This document shows, in pieces, positions 19,467-29,900 of a stretch of 51,656 bases of DNA. Source of the stretch: Terriglobia bacterium (lineage in GTDB: Bacteria; Acidobacteriota; Vicinamibacteria; Vicinamibacterales; CAVVIG01); the NCBI GenBank assembly GCA_020073005.1, contig JAIQFX010000043.1:1-51656 (forward strand). Direction: 5' to 3'. The notes beneath the pieces were generated by a model. That model worked only from the letters and a program-made list of their open reading frames with translations, made no database searches and was not told the DNA's origin. Each line of letters begins with the position of its first letter. Within the stretch, counting starts at the first letter, position 1. The position numbers and the translations under genes were made by a program.

Positions 19467-20915
19467 ATGCCCATGTATTCCGACCTCAACGACTTTCTCG
19501 CTGACCTCGAGAAGAGAGGACTGCTCGCGCGGATCGCGGAGCCGGTCAGCCCGGACCTCGAGATCGCCGCGGTCACCGACCGCGTGTGCAAATCACCGGG
19601 CGGCGGTCCGGCGCTGCTCTTCGACGCGCCTTCCGGCTTCGACATCCCCGTCGCGAGCAACGTCTACGGATCGAACGAACGCATGTGCCTCGCGCTCGGC
19701 GTGAAGACGCTCGACGATCTCGCCAAAGAGATCGACGAGCTGATGACGCCGCAGATGCCCGAAGGGATCATGGACGCGCTGAAGATGCTGCCGATGGTCG
19801 GGCGGCTGCGCGATCTGATGCCGAAGACGGTCAAGGACGCGGCGTGCCAGGAAGTCGTCCAGAAGGACGGCACGCTCGACTCGCTGCCGATTCTGAAATG
19901 CTGGCCGGACGATGGCGGGAAGTACATCACGTTCCCGCTCGTGTTCACGAAAGATCCCGAGACGGGCGTGCGGAACATCGGGACTTACCGCATGCAGGTC
20001 TTCGACGGCCGGACGACGGGCATGCACTGGCAGCGGCACAAAGGCGGCGCGCAGCACTATCGCGTCGCCGAGCGGCTCGGCAAGCGGCTCGAGGTCGCCG
20101 TCGCGTTGAGCGCCGAGCCCGTGCTGCCGTACTGCGCGACCGCGCCGATGCCCGAAGGCCTCGACGAGCTGCTGCTCGGCGGATTTCTCGCGCGACGCCG
20201 CATCGAGCTCGTCAAGTGCGTCACCGTCGATCTCGAAGTGCCGGCGAGCTCGCACATCGTCCTCGAAGGTTACGTCGAGCCCGGCGAGCGGCGCCGTGAA
20301 GGGCCGTTCGGCGATCACACCGGCCTCTATTCGCAGCCCGACGACTTCCCGGTCTTCCATCTCACCTGCCTCACGCGGCGCAAGCAGCCGACCTACCTGA
20401 CGACGGTGGTCGGCGTGCCGCCGATGGAGGACTACTACCTCGGCCTCGCGAGCGAGCGCATTTTCCTGCCGATGATTCGCAAGACGCTGCCGGAAATCGT
20501 CGACATGCATTTCCCGGCCGAGGGCATCTTCCACAATCTGGTGGTCGTGTCGATCGACAAGCGCTATCCCGGCCACGCGCGCAAGATCATGAACGCGTTC
20601 TGGGGGCTCGGCCAGCTGATGTTCTCGAAGACGATCGTCGTCGTCGACAAGGACGTCGACGTGCACGATCTCAGTCAGGTGACGTGGATCGTCGGCACGC
20701 ACATGGATCCGCTGCGCGACATCCAGATGACGAAGGGTCCGGTCGACGATCTCGACGACGCGGCCGAACTTCCCGCGTACGGCGGCAAGATGGGGATCGA
20801 CGCGACGAAGAAGTGGGCGTCGGAAGGCTACAACCGGACCTGGCCGCTCCGGGTGGTGACGACGGAGGCTGCCGGCAGGCGGGCGGCGGACGTGATCGGG
20901 CGCATGAAGATCTAG
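19467..20915 (+). CDS. UbiD family decarboxylase, probably for menaquinone
   Basis: The 482-residue protein is a prenylated-FMN-dependent decarboxylase. It begins MPMYSDLNDFLADLEKRGLL and has GTYRMQVFDGRTTGMHWQRH (cofactor and metal site), EGPFGDHTGLYSQPDDFPVFH (catalytic acid region), and EDYYLGLASERIFLPMIRKT. A UbiX that makes the cofactor is encoded at 36129, and the futalosine genes are nearby. The probable job is decarboxylation of the prenylated naphthoate in that route. Family members also act on other aromatic acids, so the substrate is inferred. Start: ATG 19467 or ATG 19473. Confidence 0.9.
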   Translation: MPMYSDLNDFLADLEKRGLLARIAEPVSPDLEIAAVTDRVCKSPGGGPALLFDAPSGFDIPVASNVYGSNERMCLALGVKTLDDLAKEIDELMTPQMPEGIMDALKMLPMVGRLRDLMPKTVKDAACQEVVQKDGTLDSLPILKCWPDDGGKYITFPLVFTKDPETGVRNIGTYRMQVFDGRTTGMHWQRHKGGAQHYRVAERLGKRLEVAVALSAEPVLPYCATAPMPEGLDELLLGGFLARRRIELVKCVTVDLEVPASSHIVLEGYVEPGERRREGPFGDHTGLYSQPDDFPVFHLTCLTRRKQPTYLTTVVGVPPMEDYYLGLASERIFLPMIRKTLPEIVDMHFPAEGIFHNLVVVSIDKRYPGHARKIMNAFWGLGQLMFSKTIVVVDKDVDVHDLSQVTWIVGTHMDPLRDIQMTKGPVDDLDDAAELPAYGGKMGIDATKKWASEGYNRTWPLRVVTTEAAGRRAADVIGRMKI

Positions 20916-21002
20916 CGGCTCCGGGAGTTGTGCAGACGCCGGCCGTTCCGCGCAAGACTTTGGCCGGATCGTCCGATACGCTTAAGGACGCAGCGCTCGA
21001 TC

Positions 21003-21602
21003 ATGACCCCGATGATCAAACGTCTCGTGCCCGCGGCGGCGGCTCTCCTCTCCCTGAGTGTGCAGCCGGCCGCGCAGTCCCTCGCCGACGCCGCCAGGCG
21101 CGCGGAAGAGCAGCGCAAAGCCGCCGGCGGATCGGCTCCGACCATCACGAACAAGGACCTGCCCGGCGAAGCCGGCGTCGCCAAGCTCCTGAACGAGTAC
21201 TTCCTCACCGACGACCTCTTCACCGCCTACCGCTGGGCGTGGGAGGCCATCATGAAGCTGCGGACGCGCAGCATCCCGATCGACACCTATCTGATGAAAT
21301 GGGAGGTCGAAGCGAAGAGCGCGCTCGACCTCGAGGCGCCGTACGGACAGGAGCCGCAGGTTGCGCGGATCCTCGACGAGCATGAACTGACCCCGAACAA
21401 GTACTTCATGACGGAACTCGCCGTCGGCCGCGCCATGGAGGACAGCCGCCTGACCAAAATCCAGCTGGCGACGCTCCCACAGGCGCGCCAGGACAACGTC
21501 AAGGTGGTGCTCACGCGCAACGAGGGCATCAACTGGCGCTCGCGGCAGGAATCCTCGAAGACCGCCCTCGAAGAGGCCCGCCGCATTCGCCCGCGAAAAT
21601 GA
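21003..21602 (+). CDS. Secreted protein of unknown function, paralogue 1 of 3
   Basis: A 199-residue protein with an N-terminal signal (RLVPAAAALLSLSVQPAAQ). Right after the predicted cleavage comes SLADAARRAEEQRKAAGG (residues 26-43), a charged amphipathic helix shared with the next two genes. The mature part is mostly helical. A second shared block (117-139) has EP at the start, HELTP in the middle and TE at the end. No known domain is recognised and no catalytic pattern is evident. Start ATG 21003 (MTPMIKR) or ATG 21012. Its stop overlaps the next ATG (ATGA). It is the first of four coupled genes, with 87 bases upstream as promoter space. Confidence 0.75.
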   Translation: MTPMIKRLVPAAAALLSLSVQPAAQSLADAARRAEEQRKAAGGSAPTITNKDLPGEAGVAKLLNEYFLTDDLFTAYRWAWEAIMKLRTRSIPIDTYLMKWEVEAKSALDLEAPYGQEPQVARILDEHELTPNKYFMTELAVGRAMEDSRLTKIQLATLPQARQDNVKVVLTRNEGINWRSRQESSKTALEEARRIRPRK

Positions 21603-22195
21603 CGCGCACGATGCTGGCCGTCGCGATGACCCTGGCGCTCGCCGATTGCGCCGCCGGCCAGGCGCTGGCCGACGCAGCCAAGCGAGCAGAAGAGCAGCGA
21701 AAAGGGAACACGACCCCGTCCATCACGCTGCGCCCGCCGACCGAACCGGAAGATGAAAGCCAGCCGCCTCGCCTGACGGCGAAGCTCGTGTCCCATTACG
21801 CCGAGGCTCGCATGGCGCTGCGCGATCGCCGCGCGGCCGATCCCAAGATGCAGCTGCGGCTGCTCGCCGCGACCCGGAACATCCAGGCGTACATCGATCT
21901 GGCGGACATCCTCGCCTCGGAGCCGACCATCGTCAACCTCTTCGACTACTACGAGCTCACGCCGCGCACGTACGTCAGGACGGAGATCATGCTGCTCATC
22001 GCGCAGTCGCGGCACGCGCTGCGGTTCGAGAAGTGGCCCGGGGACCCGCCGTCTGAGCGTGTCCGCGAGAACGTGGCGTTCTACGAGCGCAGCAAGTCGT
22101 CGGTGGATGCGGCGCTGAACGACTGCTTTCAGCATGAGGTGGGCCTCAAGATCTGGGGCTGGGCGCCGCCACCGCTGCCGAAGGTCGCGCCATGA
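21599..22195 (+). CDS. Secreted protein of unknown function, paralogue 2 of 3
   Basis: The 198-residue protein begins MTRTMLAVAMTLALADCAAG, a signal peptide; the Cys could also be a lipidation site, though the context is not a standard lipobox. It is followed by QALADAAKRAEEQRKG (21-36), a Pro-rich linker and helices. The second shared block (108-130) reads EPTIVNLF-DYYELTPRTYV ending in TEI. It aligns without gaps to the same block in its neighbours. Overlaps of four bases on both sides indicate translational coupling. The function is unknown. Confidence 0.75.
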   Translation: MTRTMLAVAMTLALADCAAGQALADAAKRAEEQRKGNTTPSITLRPPTEPEDESQPPRLTAKLVSHYAEARMALRDRRAADPKMQLRLLAATRNIQAYIDLADILASEPTIVNLFDYYELTPRTYVRTEIMLLIAQSRHALRFEKWPGDPPSERVRENVAFYERSKSSVDAALNDCFQHEVGLKIWGWAPPPLPKVAP

Positions 22196-22755
22196 AGGCG
22201 AGTCTCGCGCGCATGTGTGTCGTCGCGGCGGTGCTGGCGATCGCGACAGCCGCGGCCGGCGCGCAGACGCTGGCCGAGGCCGCCAGGCGCGCCGAAGAGC
22301 AGCGCAAAGCCGTCGAAGGCAAGCAGAAGTTCTTGATCACGGTCAAGGACAACACGTTTCACGAGGTGCCGCTGACCGGAGGGCTCGTCGATCGCTACTC
22401 GAAGGCCCGCAGCGGCCTCGCCGCCTTGTGGAAGAAGGATCGTCCGCTCTACGAGCGCGTACGGGATGGCGCCCGGGTGGTCGAGGACTTCCGCGACATC
22501 AAGAACGTTCTCCAGAGCGAGCCGATCGTCGTCGATCTGCTGAAGTTCTACGAGTTCACGCCCGAAGCCTTCGTCGAGACAGAGCTGACCCTCAGGATCG
22601 CGGACCTGCGCGCGAGCAGCGGCTACAGTGGAGGGTACAACGGCACGGTCGAGCGCGAGAACGCGGCCTACGTGCGTGCGAACTCCACGCGTCTTGGCGC
22701 CATTCGCCAGAGCTGGTATCTGCAGGAAGCCGGTCTCTCGATCTTCCCCGAATGA
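22192..22755 (+). CDS. Secreted protein of unknown function, paralogue 3 of 3
   Basis: A 187-residue protein. The signal peptide VVAAVLAIATAAAGAQ is followed by TLAEAARRAEEQRKAVEG (26-43), and the conserved block (110-132) contains EPIVVDLL, FYEFTP and TEL. The C-terminal part has ENAAYVRANS, which parallels ENVAFYERSK in paralogue 2. The protein is predicted periplasmic and mainly helical. It overlaps the genes before and after by four bases (ATGA). I do not recognise the family. Post-signal motifs of this kind (ADAARRAEEQRK) are something I recall seeing in unannotated acidobacterial proteins. Confidence 0.75.
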   Translation: MKASLARMCVVAAVLAIATAAAGAQTLAEAARRAEEQRKAVEGKQKFLITVKDNTFHEVPLTGGLVDRYSKARSGLAALWKKDRPLYERVRDGARVVEDFRDIKNVLQSEPIVVDLLKFYEFTPEAFVETELTLRIADLRASSGYSGGYNGTVERENAAYVRANSTRLGAIRQSWYLQEAGLSIFPE

Positions 22756-24302
22756 GCGCCGGACCGATGCGCGTGGTGCTCATCGATCTGCCGCCGGACG
22801 TTGATGCGCCCGACTTGAACGCCGGCCGGCCGCTCGGCCCGCAGGCGCGCGTGGCCGCGCGCATCGCCGACCTGCTCCCGGGCGCCACCTTCGACGCCGA
22901 CGGACGCGGGACGTTCCGGCGCGGGAACTACGAGCTGGCGTTCGTGCTGAGCGGAGACGAGCCGTTCGCCGTCGACGTCGAGATCGATCGGCCGGAGAGC
23001 ATCACCGCTCTTCAGCGCGTTGTCGAGAAAACAGGCTGGCGCGTGATCGATCCCGACGCGCCGGGCTTCGTTGATCTCGAGGCCAGCCGCCAGGCGGGCG
23101 CCATCGTTCTCGTCGGGCGGCCAGTTGCTCCAGAAGCGATCGCGGGCGACGCCGTCGCGCGCAGGCGGCCCCTGGTCACTGTGGCCGGCGCCGCCGTCGT
23201 GCTCGCCGCCATGTGGGCGGCGTGGCAATGGACCCAGGCGCGTCCGCCGATTCGCACGCCGGAAAGCATCGCCGGCACGCAGGAAGCGTCGGCGAAAGCC
23301 TTCGCGTGGTTCGCCAAACAGATGGCGATGCGAAACGCGCGGATGAAGGTGCTCGCGCCAGCCTTTCGCGACAACCCGATCGTGGCGCAGTTGTTCGATT
23401 TCGCGATCGCCCAGAACGGGTACTGGAACGGGCTGGGCCGCGGCCACTTTGGATCGCCCGAGCGGCTGAGCGACGCGGATCTCTGGCGGCGCTTCGACCG
23501 TGATCCGCTGCTGCCGCCGACGTTCGCCCAGGCGGAGCGGACGGGCTACGTGTTCGAGTACACGGGCAGCGGGAATTGCATCGAGGACGCGCCGGGCGTG
23601 CAGGAGTGCGACACATTCGTCTACAGCGCGCGGCCGCTGCGGCCGGGGAAGGACATCGCCGTCACCTTCGTGCTGATGAGCGAGGACGAAAAGATCCACA
23701 TCCGCAACGACGGACAGATTCCGACGAAAGACGACCCGAACGTGGACAACATGTCGCCATCCACGGCCGAAGAGTACGCGGCGGCGTCCGCGGCGTCCGC
23801 CCGAGAACCGTCCGAGGGACTGTTCGCCGCGATCGGCAAGAGTGTGACCGGCCTCTTCGAGCGATTTGCCGCCCCGAAGCCGACCGCTGCGGCGATCGCG
23901 GCCGCGGAGACGAGCGTGCTGCGCGACCTGCGCGCCGTCGCGCAGGCGGAGTACGCGATGGGGGCGTTGACGTCCGGCACGCCGCGGTATCTGGCGCCCG
24001 AGCAGCTGACGGACACGGCGCTGTGGGCGCAGGCGAAGATGCCGCCGTTGCTGGCCGGGTTCTTCGCGCAGCCGCATCGTCAGGGGTACGAGTTCGAGTT
24101 CATCGGCGATGGCGAGACGGGGATCGACGGCCGGTTCGAGTTCCTCAAGCCGATGTGGGCGTCATTCGTCTACGTGGCGCGGCCGATGGACCCGGGCCCC
24201 GCTGGCCGCCGCACGTTCGCGCTCTATCCCGACGGGCAGGTGTTCGCGACGGACGAGCACCGCACGCCGACGCGCAGCGACGTCCCTCTCGGCGACAAGT
24301 GA
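22752..24302 (+). CDS. Membrane-anchored protein with two copies of a pilin-tail-like domain
   Basis: This 516-residue protein is of unknown function. Residues 1-130 form a predicted cytoplasmic domain (RVAARIADLLPGATFDADG and ALQRVVEKTGWRVIDPDAPG). One membrane helix follows (about 140-160, PLVTVAGAAVVLAAMWAAWQ). Two related extracytoplasmic units come next: A at 239-325 (LSDADLWRRF, TGYVFEYTG, YSARPLRPG, IRNDGQIPT) and B at 419-507 (LTDTALWAQ, QGYEFEFIG, YVARPMDPG, YPDGQVFAT). Unit A has two Cys that may pair (Cys276, Cys286). The units resemble the soluble tails of pseudopilin-like proteins common in Acidobacteriota (inference). The start overlaps the stop of paralogue 3, so the four genes form one coupled cassette. 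Confidence 0.75.
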   Translation: MSAGPMRVVLIDLPPDVDAPDLNAGRPLGPQARVAARIADLLPGATFDADGRGTFRRGNYELAFVLSGDEPFAVDVEIDRPESITALQRVVEKTGWRVIDPDAPGFVDLEASRQAGAIVLVGRPVAPEAIAGDAVARRRPLVTVAGAAVVLAAMWAAWQWTQARPPIRTPESIAGTQEASAKAFAWFAKQMAMRNARMKVLAPAFRDNPIVAQLFDFAIAQNGYWNGLGRGHFGSPERLSDADLWRRFDRDPLLPPTFAQAERTGYVFEYTGSGNCIEDAPGVQECDTFVYSARPLRPGKDIAVTFVLMSEDEKIHIRNDGQIPTKDDPNVDNMSPSTAEEYAAASAASAREPSEGLFAAIGKSVTGLFERFAAPKPTAAAIAAAETSVLRDLRAVAQAEYAMGALTSGTPRYLAPEQLTDTALWAQAKMPPLLAGFFAQPHRQGYEFEFIGDGETGIDGRFEFLKPMWASFVYVARPMDPGPAGRRTFALYPDGQVFATDEHRTPTRSDVPLGDK

Positions 24303-24329
24303 ACGGACCACCGACGCGCGCAGCGACGC

Positions 24330-25274
24330 TCACGCGCGCGCGAAATCGACCGCCGTCGTATTTGCTCCGCTGACGACGACTCCCACTCGCTCGCCCTCGG
24401 CGGGTTGATACGCGCCTGACAGCAGCGCCGCGAACGCCGCCGAGCCGCCCGGCTCCGCCACCAGGCGCAATCCCTCCCACAACGTGCGCTGCGCGTTCAG
24501 AATGGCCTCGTCGCTGACGAGGACGACGCGCGCGACGTGCGCGCGCGCGATCGGGAACATCAGCTCGCCGACGCGCTTCGGCGCGAGCGAATCGGCCGCG
24601 ACGCTGCCGGTTGGCGCGTCGACGGGATGGCTCGCCCTGAGTGCGTCATGCAATGTCGGTGCGCCCTCGGGCTCGACCGCGATGACGCGCGTCCGCGATC
24701 CGTACCACGCCGCGATCCCGCCGATCAGTCCGCCGCCGCCGACGGCCACCAGAACCGTGTCGAGTCCCGGCGCCTGCAGCGACAACTCGAGGCCGAGCGT
24801 GCCTTGTCCGGCGATCGTCTCGACCTGATCGAACGCGTGGACCGGCATCGCGCCGGACGATTGGCTCCACTCGATGCTCGCGGCGAGCGCATCCGCGTAG
24901 CGTTCTCCGACGACCGTCAACTCCGCGCCGTACGAACGTATGCGATCGATCTTCGCGGGCGAGGAGACGGTCGGCACGAAGATGCGCGCGGGCATTCCGA
25001 GCCGCATCGCCGCGTACGCGACCGCCGCGCCATGATTGCCGCCCGACGCCGCCACGACACCCGCGGCCGGCGGATGTCGCGTCAGCAGATTCGCGAACGC
25101 GCCGCGCGTTTTGAACGAGCCGGCGTGCTGCAACTGCTCGAGCTTCAGCGTCAACGGGAACGGCGCCAGCCCGAACTCCGCCCCGCTGACGCGCGCGATC
25201 GGCGTCATGCGGATGTAAGGCGCGATGATGCTGTGCACGCGCTCGATGTCGGCTCGACTGACGGCGAGAGACAT
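24330..25274 (-). CDS. PLP-dependent serine/threonine dehydratase-type enzyme
   Basis: The 314-residue fold-type II PLP enzyme has LKLEQLQHAGSFKTRGAFAN with the Schiff-base Lys55, SGGNHGAAVAYAA as the carboxylate-binding loop, and VAVGGGGLIGGIAAW as the phosphate-binding Gly loop. These fit threonine dehydratase or serine racemase relatives, which deaminate Ser/Thr to 2-oxo acids. There is no C-terminal regulatory ACT domain, so it is the short catabolic-type form. Start ATG 25274 (MSLAVSRADIERV) is taken. An in-frame TTG at 25295 is an alternative. It is convergent with the preceding cassette and divergent from the MBL gene. Confidence 0.88.
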   Translation of the reverse strand: MSLAVSRADIERVHSIIAPYIRMTPIARVSGAEFGLAPFPLTLKLEQLQHAGSFKTRGAFANLLTRHPPAAGVVAASGGNHGAAVAYAAMRLGMPARIFVPTVSSPAKIDRIRSYGAELTVVGERYADALAASIEWSQSSGAMPVHAFDQVETIAGQGTLGLELSLQAPGLDTVLVAVGGGGLIGGIAAWYGSRTRVIAVEPEGAPTLHDALRASHPVDAPTGSVAADSLAPKRVGELMFPIARAHVARVVLVSDEAILNAQRTLWEGLRLVAEPGGSAAFAALLSGAYQPAEGERVGVVVSGANTTAVDFARA

Positions 25275-25303
25275 GGAGAGATTGTTGATCAATACTGTCC
25301 CGT

Positions 25304-26251
25304 ATGACGCGCACCCGCCTCGCCCTGATCCTCGCCGGCCTCGTCGTCTGCACGATCGCGTTCCGCGCGCAGACACCGGCGCCGCCGGCCGCGCACGCGT
25401 TCACGCAGATTGCGCCCGGCGTCTACAGCGCCGTCGGCTCCGGCACGTCGAACGCAGGATCCAACTCGGCGGTCATCGTCACTCAGGACGACGTGGTCGT
25501 CGTCGACTCCCACATGACGCCCGAATCGGGACGCGTGCTGCTGCAGGAAATCAAGACGCTCACGGACAAGCCCGTACGCCTGTTGATCGATACGCACTTT
25601 CATTACGACCACACGGACGGGAACCAGGTCTTCGCGCCGATTGCCGACATCATCGGCCACGAGTACACGCGGTCGCGCCTGGCCGCGCCTGGGTACATGC
25701 AGCGCGGGATGCTCGGCGACCTGCTGCGGCGTGAGACGCCGCTGAGTGAGAGCTTGAAGGGGCTGAAGCCCACGCCGCCGAACATCACGCTCGACGATCG
25801 CATGACGCTCTTTCGCGGCGACCGCGAGATCCGCCTGCTGTATCTCGGCCGCGGCCACACGGGCGGCGACGTCGTCGTCTATCTGCCGAAGGAACGCGTG
25901 CTGTGCAGTGGCGATCTCCTCGTGAACGGCATCGCCAACCTCGTCGATGGCTTCGTCAACGAATGGCCTGATGCACTCGAGAAGCTGAAGCCGATCGATT
26001 TCGTCGACGTCATCCCGGGACACGGCGAGCCGTTCAAGGGCAAGGAGCGCATCGACTGGTTCCAGGCCTACCTGCGGGATCTGTGGACGCAGGCGACGGC
26101 GCTGCACGATCAGAAGGTGGCCGCCGCCGACGCGGCCAAGCGCATCGACATGACCGCGCACAAGGCGCACTACCCGGCGATCAACGGTCCTGGCGTGAAT
26201 CCGGTAGCGGTTTCCCGGATCTACGAGGTCATCGAGAAGCGCGCGGAGTAG
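25304..26251 (+). CDS. Secreted MBL-fold metallo-hydrolase
   Basis: A 315-residue protein with a signal peptide (ALILAGLVVCTIAFRAQ) and a metallo-beta-lactamase fold. Metal ligands are in DTHFHYDHTDGNQ (HxHxDH), LGRGHTGGDVVVYL (His), SGDLLVN (Asp) and VIPGHGEPFKG (His), so the two-zinc site is complete. It hydrolyses an unknown substrate in the periplasm. The family includes lactonases, glyoxalase II-like enzymes and subclass B-like enzymes, and sequence alone does not decide between them. The HFHYDHTDGN pattern is typical of the environmental cyclase/hydrolase group. Confidence 0.88.
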   Translation: MTRTRLALILAGLVVCTIAFRAQTPAPPAAHAFTQIAPGVYSAVGSGTSNAGSNSAVIVTQDDVVVVDSHMTPESGRVLLQEIKTLTDKPVRLLIDTHFHYDHTDGNQVFAPIADIIGHEYTRSRLAAPGYMQRGMLGDLLRRETPLSESLKGLKPTPPNITLDDRMTLFRGDREIRLLYLGRGHTGGDVVVYLPKERVLCSGDLLVNGIANLVDGFVNEWPDALEKLKPIDFVDVIPGHGEPFKGKERIDWFQAYLRDLWTQATALHDQKVAAADAAKRIDMTAHKAHYPAINGPGVNPVAVSRIYEVIEKRAE

Positions 26252-26254
26252 AAA

Positions 26255-26317
26255 GTCCGGCTAAAGCCGGACACCACGATTAGCAGGGTCCTTGCATGAT
26301 TAGCAGGGTCCTTGCAT
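26255..26317. repeat. Hairpin followed by a 20-nt tandem duplication
   Basis: GTCCGGCT (26255-26262) and AGCCGGAC (26265-26272) form a perfect 8-bp stem with an AA loop, beginning four bases after the MBL-hydrolase stop. Next, GATTAGCAGGGTCCTTGCAT occurs twice in perfect tandem (26278-26297 and 26298-26317). The hairpin has the same compact style as the GTAGCGC elements. The duplication is recent-looking because it has no differences. Confidence 0.85.
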
Positions 26318-26328
26318 GGAGGTTGGGT

Positions 26329-26892
26329 ATGGCCACCACTGCCGCTCCGACCACGACGAATACCGGCTTCGCCATGCGGCTGCTCGGCGCGGCTGCGCTC
26401 GACCCCACGACCTACGAGGAAATCGAGGCTGACCGCGGCGCGACGGGCCAGGCGCTTCTGGTCGTCGTGCTGTCGAGCCTCGCCGCCGGCATCGGCGCGC
26501 GCGGGCTCGGCAGCGGCTCGCTGACCAGCGTCGTGTTCCTCAGCGGCATCGCGCTGATCTCGTGGGCCGCGTGGGCGCTCGTCACCTTCGAGATCGGCGC
26601 GCGCATCATGCCGACGCCGGAGACGCGCGTGGACATCGGTGAGCTGCTGCGGACCATCGGCTTCGCAGCCACGCCGGGCATGCTCCAGATCTTTGGAGTC
26701 GTCCCGGGCGCCGCCGTGCCCGCGTTCGTGATCACGTGGATCTGGATGCTGGCCGCGATGGTGGTCGCGGTTCGCCAGGCGCTTGACTTCACCAGCACGG
26801 CCCGCGCCATCGGCGTCTGCGTCCTGGGCTGGGTTCTCGCCCTCGGCATCGCCATCACACTCGGCTTGTTCTTCGGGCCGACGGTGTCGTAA
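26329..26892 (+). CDS. Yip1-family multi-pass membrane protein
   Basis: A 187-residue protein with about five hydrophobic helices (ALLVVVLSSLAAGIGARGLG, SVVFLSGIALISWAAWALVT, AVPAFVITWIWMLAAMVVAV, IGVCVLGWVLALGIAITLGL). The polar N-terminus DPTTYEEIEADRGATGQALL matches a group of small bacterial proteins assigned to the Yip1 domain. The function is unknown. ATG 26329 has GGAGG six bases upstream and is chosen over the in-frame ATG 26296, which lies in the tandem duplication. Confidence 0.75.
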   Translation: MATTAAPTTTNTGFAMRLLGAAALDPTTYEEIEADRGATGQALLVVVLSSLAAGIGARGLGSGSLTSVVFLSGIALISWAAWALVTFEIGARIMPTPETRVDIGELLRTIGFAATPGMLQIFGVVPGAAVPAFVITWIWMLAAMVVAVRQALDFTSTARAIGVCVLGWVLALGIAITLGLFFGPTVS

Positions 26893-26990
26893 CCTTGATC
26901 TAGTGCCAGCCTGGTATCTGCGCTCGCGTGGCCGTGAGCGCTAACACACTTTTGTCACAGGACCGGCGTCTAAGTTGACACTGCCGTTTC

Positions 26991-29900
26991 ATGCACAGAG
27001 ATAGACGTTTGCCCCGGTTCCACCGGTCTGCCGCCGCCGTCCTTCTGGCGTCCGCACTCGCCCTGACCGCCCATCGTATCGACGTCGCCGCGCAGAGCAA
27101 CGCGGGGAAGCTGGCGACGGTGCTGGCCGATCTAGTGCAGGCGCTGCCGCAGGCGGCCGCCGCGCCCGGCCCCGCTCTCAGTGGTACTGGTTCCGGAGCG
27201 CCCGCGCCGCAATCAGCGCTGTCGTACGACGCGTTTCCGCCGTCGGTGCAGGACGCCATCAAGGGACGCTGGCTGCGCATCGATCAGAACAACGCCGCGC
27301 AGCTCTACGTGCTGGTCAACGAGGTCACCGACAGCGTCGTCAGTCAGCTGACGGCCGCCGGCGCGACGATCGAGATTCGCGACGCCGCGCGCCGCCGCGT
27401 GCAGGCGCGCATTCCGCTCGACCGCATCCAGGCCGTCGCGGCGCTCTCGAGCGTCGACGAGATCCGCCTGCCGACGTACGCGCGCCGCCGCGCCGGGACC
27501 GCGGTGAGCGAAGGCGACTCCATTCTTCACACCGACGCCGTGCGTAATCAGTGGTTCCTCGACGGCGCGGGCGTGCGCGTCGGCGTCATCTCGGACGGTC
27601 TCAAGGGCGTGTTCGACACGAACTGCACCACGTGCGGCGGCGTGGCCAACGGCCCGATCGCGTCGGGCGACTTGCCGTCGTCGCAGGGGACGCGCACGGC
27701 GAGCGGCGTGCTGACCTCCTCGATCGGCGGCATCGTCGCGCGATCGTTTCAGGCGAACGGCGATCTCGAAGGGCTGCCGCCCGCGACGCCCGCCTGCGGG
27801 TTCGCCGGCGCCGGCGGGGAAGGGACGGCGCTGCTCGAGATCGTGCACGACCTCGCGCCGTCGGCGAAGCTGTCGTTCGCGAACTTCGACACCGATCTCG
27901 CGTTCACGCAGGCCGTGAATTTCCTGGCGGCGTCGAACGACGTCGTGCTCGACGACATCGGCTTCTACGGCGTGCCGTTCGACGGCACGAGCCTCGTCTC
28001 GACCAACACCGCCGCGGCGCTGAACAATCCGGCCTACCCGATTCGCGCGTACTTCACGGCGGCCGGTAACGACGCCGACGAGCACTACTACGGCGCGTAC
28101 ACGAACTCAGGGGTCGACGGCTCGACGGTGAGCGGCATCACGAACTCCGGCAAGCTGCACCTGTTCCAGCGCACGTCCGACACGACCGACGCGCTCGGGC
28201 TCGGCGCGCAGCCGTACAACGTCATCGCGCTGCCGGCGAACGGCGAAGCGGCGATCTTCCTGAGCTGGGACGACACGTTCGGCGCGTCCGCCAACAACTA
28301 CGATCTGTATCTCGTCCAGCAGAGCACGGGACGCGTGGTGGCGAGCAGCACGACCGTGCAGAGCGGCCGTCAGGATCCCACCGAGTTCATCGACTACGTC
28401 AACCGCGGCAGCCAGGATTTCTTCCGCATCGTCGTGCAGAACGTCCGTGACTCTGCGCAGCCGAGGCACCTGAACCTGTTTTCGTTCCAGCCGGAGTGCG
28501 CGTCCGGCGGTCCGCTGCTGCTCACGGCCGGCCGGCACGAGCGCGTCAACTACAACACGGCGACGCGCAGCATCTCGGCGCAGAGCGACGCGGGCGGCTC
28601 GCCGGTCAGCGTCGTCGCGGTCGGCGCCATCTGCTCGGCGACGGCCGCCGCGGCCGGGCGCTTCGGCGACACGACGCCGAACGAATCGTGCCTGGACGTG
28701 TCGAACTCGACGGCCGAGTTCTACAGCAGCCGCGGGCCGACGCTCGACGGCCGCGTGAAGCCGGACGTCGCCGGCATCGACGGGGTGACGATCACCGGAG
28801 CGGGCAGTTTCAGCAATCCGTTCTTCGGGACGTCGGCCGCGGCGCCGCATCTGGGCGCGATCGCGGCGGTCGTGCTGCAGGGCGCGCCGTGCCTCCTCAG
28901 CCGATCGACGACGACGATTGACGCCGCGTCGGCGCGCAGCACGCTCCGGAATCTGCTGGTCAAGACCGCGGATCGCCTGGGCGATCCGGATCCCAACAAT
29001 CTCTTCGGCTCGGGCCGCGTGAACGCGGTCAACGCCGTGCAGGCGACGCTGCCGACCTGGAACGGCAAGGCGACGATCAACGTGGACGGCAACGTCGCGG
29101 GCGGCGCCAGCCTGACGCCCGCGCAGCTTGGATTCGCCGATCCCACCAACTGCGGGCTGGTGTCGCTGAACTGGACCGGAGGCTGCGGCACGTCGCCGGG
29201 CGCCACGATGACGTGTCCCTTCGGCGGGAGCGCCGTCACGGTGTCGGCCAGCAACAACGGGTACGGCTTCTCCGACGCGCACGACATCAACGTGGTCGTG
29301 TCGAACTTCGCCGCGGCCGTCTCGCCGGCCTCGGCCACGATCGCGGCGGGCCAGTCCGCGAAGTTCACGGTCACGCTGACGCCGCAGGTCGCGCCGTTCC
29401 GCACGCCGATCACCCTGACGTGCGACAGCACCACGCTGCCGCCCAACACCGCGTGCGCCTTCAATCCGCCGACCGTGACGCTCGGCCCGGTCCCCGTGCA
29501 GTCGACGATGACGCTGACGACGACCGCGGCGTCGGGGTTGGGCGCGGTCACGCGGCCACGGAAGGCGGGCCTGGCGTGGCCGCCGATCGATTTCACGCGG
29601 ATGCGTCCGGCGCCGTCGATGGTCCTCTGGCCGTTCGCCGCGCTGCTGGTCTGGGGTGCGATGCGGCGTCCGCGTGTCACGCGGCGCGCGACGGCCGCCG
29701 CGGTCTGCGCGCTGACGCTCGCGGCCGTGCTCGGCCAGGCGATCTTCACGACCGTGCCGGCGCTGGCGGATGCCGGCATCGCGCTGTTCCCGTCGTCGCT
29801 CACGTTCGATTCGCAGATCGTCAGCACGACCGCACCGGCTCAGCTGGTCCATCTCACCAACGTCGGCGCCGACGCGCTGAGCCTCACGACCATCTCCACC

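Follow-up and report, generated by a model that had tools for sequence, protein, structure and literature searches.

A coupled run of three putatively exported paralogues and a membrane protein that looks like a local expansion in one Terriglobia genome

The window analysed here, i.e. the whole stretch from position 1 to 51,656 of contig JAIQFX010000043.1 (51,656 nucleotides; assembly GCA_020073005.1, Terriglobia bacterium), carries a run of four coupled genes, P1 to P4, of which the first three encode paralogous proteins with a predicted signal peptide and the fourth a putative membrane protein. Because none of the related genomes searched contained it, the run looks like a lineage-specific tandem expansion, a local invention rather than a recurring or widespread system. 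We favor the reading, at a probability of about 0.5, that the run serves as a lineage-specific envelope accessory that perhaps acts in the assembly of type IV pili or at the pilus tip, and that it arose by duplication of an ancestral gene and addition of P4.

Searches with P4 or with a profile of the P family (P1-P3) did not find the four-gene run in 192 other genomes of the class, where the homologues are unlinked or single, and P3, P4, and P-family profiles did not find it in relatives, class, or phylum. Two genome_contigs scans gave no relatives, and plasmids (searched with P3 only) and viral contigs gave no match. A limited number of candidates was scored per genome in these searches (for example 16, 21, or 7) and some misses are possible. 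The first-pass annotation of this DNA had named a recurring cassette as support for its reading and unlinked genes in relatives as evidence to the contrary; the run was not found in the relatives searched, and the latter situation was largely found, with P-type and P4 genes occurring apart. Across the class, 97 of 193 genomes (own genome included) gave a match to the P profile. Near-full-length matches are present only in the own genome (four places) and in G013, a genome of another genus in the same family (one place), and nearly all of the remaining matches cover positions of about 6-57, the N-terminal element described below. The fourth place in the own genome is a further P-type copy that stands alone on contig C20. 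The G013 gene is single and lies directly behind the same ubiD-type gene that precedes the run in the window.

The site behind ubiD was then compared among relatives. A ubiD match is present in 19 other genomes of the family, of which 16 sites plus that of G013 were compared (in G020 and G024 the match runs off the contig), and G001 is uninformative as only 344 bases of contig follow the match there. The other 15 genomes, with at least about 3 kb behind ubiD, show nothing there that matches any of P1-P4 or either of the other two copies at an expect value (E) of 1e-3. In G002 (same genus) and G007 ubiD is followed directly by the next conserved gene with no run between, and elsewhere the first gene encodes an S8-type protease (G022, G004), a small membrane protein (G012), or a metallo-hydrolase (G019). 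The content of this site varies between relatives. From G013 and the other family sites compared, we therefore conclude that the site is variable, that a single P-type gene is probably old at this position, and that the run of four is local. The same comparison of window positions 20915-26991 with loci L086-L100 shows a first gene that varies among protease, metallo-hydrolase, small membrane protein, and dehydratase-like types.

P1-P3 are, by alignment, true paralogues beyond chance since their local alignment scores lie far above those of shuffled sequences (36 standard deviations for P2/P3 and 18 for both P1/P2 and P1/P3), even after removal of the first 45 residues (31, 7.7, and 5.2 standard deviations for P2/P3, P1/P2, and P1/P3, respectively). 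Each N-terminus reads as a signal peptide followed by a helix, LADAARRAEEQRK or nearly so, and then by a TNxDL-like strand; 11-12 of the 13 helix positions are identical in each pair. A second block of 23 residues (P1 117-139, P2 108-130, P3 110-132) is identical at 10-11 positions per pair. After the helix and with this block excluded, identity amounts to 34/122 positions for P2/P3, 27/124 for P1/P2, and 21/117 for P1/P3. P2 and P3 form the closest pair in the tree (89/85), and a tree of 13 rows also groups them to the exclusion of the single G013 gene (87/85). The three secreted paralogues, the position of the 23-residue block, and the ATGA overlap at every junction (21599, 22192, and 22752), all reported in the first-pass annotation, hold up on these data; its statement that the proteins differ strongly elsewhere is fair for P1, the most diverged of the three, and overstated for P2/P3, where the alignment reaches 35% across residues 7-185 of P3. 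All three open reading frames (ORFs) are intact. The LADC sequence in P2, as read by eye, is not a standard lipobox. Shared codons at the N-terminus are in excess for P1/P3 (15/20 vs. 10.6 expected) and P2/P3 (15/22 vs. 11.6) and at expectation for P1/P2 (11/22 vs. 11.9), which is suggestive at best of gene conversion of the N-terminal element among the three genes.

Profile comparison indicates that P1-P3 have a two-part build, the N-terminal element being fused to a helical domain shared with a wider, unnamed secreted family. Searched by itself, the helical part gave matches in 8 of 193 genomes of the class and 6 of 396 of the phylum, with the own genome included in both counts. In a profile-profile comparison, the helical domain was aligned over 125 columns with eight relatives (family A7, aligned without the P sequences) at a probability of 98.3 and E of 2.3e-14, where two members of A7 had been found by the P family alone and the others through profiles in which P sequences or those of fellow members were already included. 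A7 (L029/L051, L049, L057, L058, L060, L104-L106) is scattered over the phylum, and seven of its eight proteins were searched against Pfam with no family at cut-off. Its members share with P1-P3 a signal peptide, the pattern LT...EP...TPxxY...NVxFV, and the homologous helical domain; unlike P1-P3, all eight are without the N-terminal element. G212 and G217 carry the element and the helical domain on different contigs, so that the own genome and G013 are the only ones in which the two were seen joined. The first-pass annotation had recognized no described system, and Pfam, NCBIfam, and PHROGs gave only sub-threshold matches for P1-P4 and none near the cut-off. Solved structures searched by sequence gave nothing convincing (best 0.19 for P4 and 0.26 for the helical profile), and a literature search brought up no paper that we recognized as describing the element or the cassette.

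The helix shared by P1-P3 is not special to the cassette: it also heads proteins of type IV pilus loci across the class, and the element is present in 57 of 199 genomes of a phylum sample (own included). In the element test it was found in P1-P3 and in the C20 copy. The own genome has five carriers at E <= 4e-16 (P1-P3, the C20 copy, and one protein on contig C121) and the next match is at 0.2. A profile built from seven pilus-locus N-termini alone matched P0006 at 4.5e-12, P1 at 2.3e-11, P2 at 3.5e-7, and P3 at 2.6e-6; the best of 500 controls that kept the first 25 residues reached 4.1e-5 and came from P2, whose first 25 residues already include part of the helix. The other carriers in the class belong mostly to a single family, whose members have a linker and a charged helix with GVPPGWLR at its end. 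These proteins have the signal peptide, basic helix, and TNxDL-like stretch of P1-P3. They differ from P1-P3 in the body, which we read as a proline-rich linker plus a charged coiled-coil-like helix, in the GVPPGWLR end of the C-terminal helix, which P1-P3 are without, and in their position next to minor pilin genes and an NtrC-type regulator, which the cassette does not adjoin.

The protein with N-terminal SLADVARKEEERRK..KVYTNxDL and C-terminal GVPPGWLR belongs to no Pfam family; at loci across the class its gene is flanked by minor pilin genes on one side and an NtrC-type regulator gene on the other. We counted 27 such loci, among them the one that supplied most of the pilus-locus queries (the query's own locus) and two that supplied one query each. 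A PilW-, PilX-, PilY1-tail-, or TPR-like match is present in 23 and missing from four, and the NtrC-type regulator likewise stands beside the protein in 23/27 and not in the other four. In the query locus Pfam confirmed PilX_N, N-terminal methylation motifs, a prepilin peptidase (A24 peptidase), and a sigma-54 regulator, and gave no match for the PilY1-tail query; the names PilV, PilW, PilY1 tail, TPR, and NtrC-type, like ubiD and threonine dehydratase, are our own assignments. In the own genome the C121 protein (L046:3063-3611) has the same two ends, and PilV-, PilW-, and PilX-like genes, the C121 gene, and the regulator gene are adjacent. Among 21 genomes searched with a pilin, 17 also have an element match; in 11 of these the two matches share contig and strand at a distance of 7.9-14.4 kb, and in the remaining six they are on different contigs. 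The protein with the GVPPGWLR end may be an undescribed pilus accessory.

P4 was described in the first-pass annotation as membrane-anchored, with an outer domain that is duplicated, and this was confirmed: its most hydrophobic 19-residue stretch lies at 140-158, consistent with one membrane helix, and the outer part scores 139 when aligned with itself, where shuffles average 30.7 (z = 22). The only full-length homologue in the class genomes is encoded at G129:C73:2497-3936 (32% over residues 24-509, E 1.6e-25); no P-type match was reported on that contig, and G129 encodes its wider-family protein on another one. Apart from G129, 12 of 193 class genomes have a match to the last outer domain (about 342-508), and the proteins matched are either pilins or membrane proteins that have a pilin-like head. 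When three of these heads were combined in a profile, it matched P4 at 6.3e-15 and its homologue at 3.8e-12; every one of the 28 pilins was matched as well (6e-16 to 4.5e-5), against 0.71 for the best of 560 shuffles. Direct comparisons were weaker: the pilin profile gave 0.032 for P4 and 0.0027 for the homologue, and the second outer domain (D2) scored z = 9 against one pilin. The outer domains appear to resemble pilin heads through a bridging family, and we call them pilin-head-like rather than pilins because there is no prepilin leader. Compared with type IV pilins (PF07963 N-terminus) and pilin-like-head proteins, the last outer domain of P4 aligns along most of the head; unlike pilins, P4 is without the prepilin leader and its N-terminal methylation motif (by sequence; no Pfam family), has an internal membrane helix after an N-terminal domain of 135 residues, and has a doubled head. 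Loci L161, L168, L171, L173, and L174 also encode pilin-like heads on proteins without a pilin leader at the start, and we read their N-termini as zinc-ribbon-like or multi-membrane, one with a metallopeptidase-like part.

The features of the run and its flanks are listed in Table 1. P1 may alternatively start at a second ATG at 21012, and the listed ORF of the right flanking gene is extended at its start. A promoter scan detected none, and one terminator-like site was found, on the opposite strand, fewer than in shuffles. The surroundings in the window are presumably housekeeping, i.e. envelope biogenesis and quinone and fatty acid synthesis, as judged from the sequences.

Table 1. Positions in the window of the P1-P4 genes, the N-terminal element repeats, and the flanking genes (aa, amino acids; nt, nucleotide).
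Feature	Position	Strand	Description
P1	21003..21602	+	199 aa; putative exported helical protein: signal peptide, N-terminal element, helical domain
P2	21599..22195	+	198 aa; P1 paralogue, overlaps P1 by ATGA
P3	22192..22755	+	187 aa; paralogue, nearest to P2, overlaps P2 by ATGA
P4	22752..24302	+	516 aa; N-terminal domain, predicted membrane helix ~140-162, two pilin-head-like outer domains; overlaps P3 by ATGA
N-terminal element DNA, P1	21071..21126	+	56-nt repeat family
N-terminal element DNA, P2	21655..21710	+	73% identical within 56-nt repeat family
N-terminal element DNA, P3	22260..22315	+	89% identical within 56-nt repeat family
ubiD-type decarboxylase gene	19467..20915	+	conserved left flank, upstream of variable site
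pyridoxal-enzyme gene resembling threonine dehydratase	24330..25376	-	right flank; adjoins ubiD directly in G002, G007

For an envelope accessory we propose the following course, in which export, topology, docking, and the link to pili are inferred. P1-P3 would be exported by Sec, and cleavage near a conserved Q would leave the basic helix as the free mature N-terminus, which may dock the three proteins to an envelope partner; their three different helical bodies would then offer different surfaces on the docked complex. P4 would sit in the inner membrane, with its N-terminus probably inside because the positive residues ARRR precede the membrane helix, and would present two pilin-head-like domains to the periplasm as a local receptor or anchor. 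The set may have originated by duplication of one ancestral gene and the addition of P4. The priming complex of PilY1 and minor pilins (PMC7541494) is comparable by analogy in that several small subunits gather around pilin-type domains in the envelope, and differs in that the cassette encodes no PilY1 or minor pilin.

Several results weigh against this proposal. The pilus-locus queries gave no match in the window (E <= 1e-4), where no pilus gene was found, and none in the flanking stretches covered at the G013 locus, six wider-family loci, and the P4-homologue locus; their sole match across cassette-related loci is to the C20 copy, through the element itself. For the G013 protein, the match to the N-terminal profile is weak (0.019). 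On the side of P4, the pilin link rests on the three bridging heads, themselves chosen because P4 found them; the P4-family profile was not significant against the 28 pilins directly (best 0.55; shuffles 1.4), single-domain profile comparisons of P4 and pilins gave probabilities of 0.7-8.5%, and the first outer domain (D1) scored below shuffles (z -1.6) against the same pilin that D2 aligned with. AlphaFold models of P4 (single chain, sequence alone) and P2 (single chain, three-row alignment) were poor, with a mean predicted local distance difference test score (pLDDT) of 41.7 and 48.6, respectively. Finally, no tree branch earned the star of the program, and P2/P3 were flagged as long branches.

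Among the alternatives, neutral amplification of an exported protein that the cell can do without, whose N-terminal element would be retained merely as an efficient export signal, is unlikely in our estimate and survives best. It would account for the absence of the gene from the ubiD site in 15 of the 16 other family genomes with enough sequence, for its frequent absence genome-wide, for the lone C20 copy, and for an element that is always N-terminal and behind a signal peptide. It fits less well with intact ORFs and blocks preserved despite strong divergence, and the TNxDL part lies far past the cleavage site, yet is kept in the pilus-locus proteins. We consider it slightly less probable that the run is a new dedicated system in which P1-P3 form one periplasmic heteromer anchored by P4, as the first-pass annotation had suggested: the tight ATGA coupling, the common export and N-terminal element, the divergence of P1-P3 from each other, and a membrane partner with outer domains agree with such a system, but a run missing from the 192 other class genomes and from two genome_contigs scans, and P4 and P genes that occur apart, do not. 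More speculative, and in our view doubtful, is a docking code derived from pili, in which the pilus-locus N-terminal helix would be a portable tag on P1-P3 and the tagged, diverged proteins would assemble on the membrane-held double pilin head of P4 as a small side-branch of the pilus machine, private to this lineage. A recently acquired mobile or foreign island, although the flanking genes stand side by side without the run in G002 and G007, is very improbable given a G+C content of 0.681 in the run against 0.670 in the window and 0.674/0.684 in the flanks (on which grounds foreign origin by base composition was rejected), the related single gene at the same place in G013, the lack of matches in plasmids and viral contigs, and the lack of an integrase-like gene beside the run on reading the ORFs, where no search was aimed at integrases.

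If the link to pili of the proposed envelope accessory is false, the run would illustrate that coupled, diverged paralogues in one genome can reflect local expansion and not a conserved machine. If it is true, an N-terminal helix without a curated family would be a candidate docking element of pilus loci that was reused in the cassette. The N-terminal element of the pilus-locus proteins is the lead with the wider reach.

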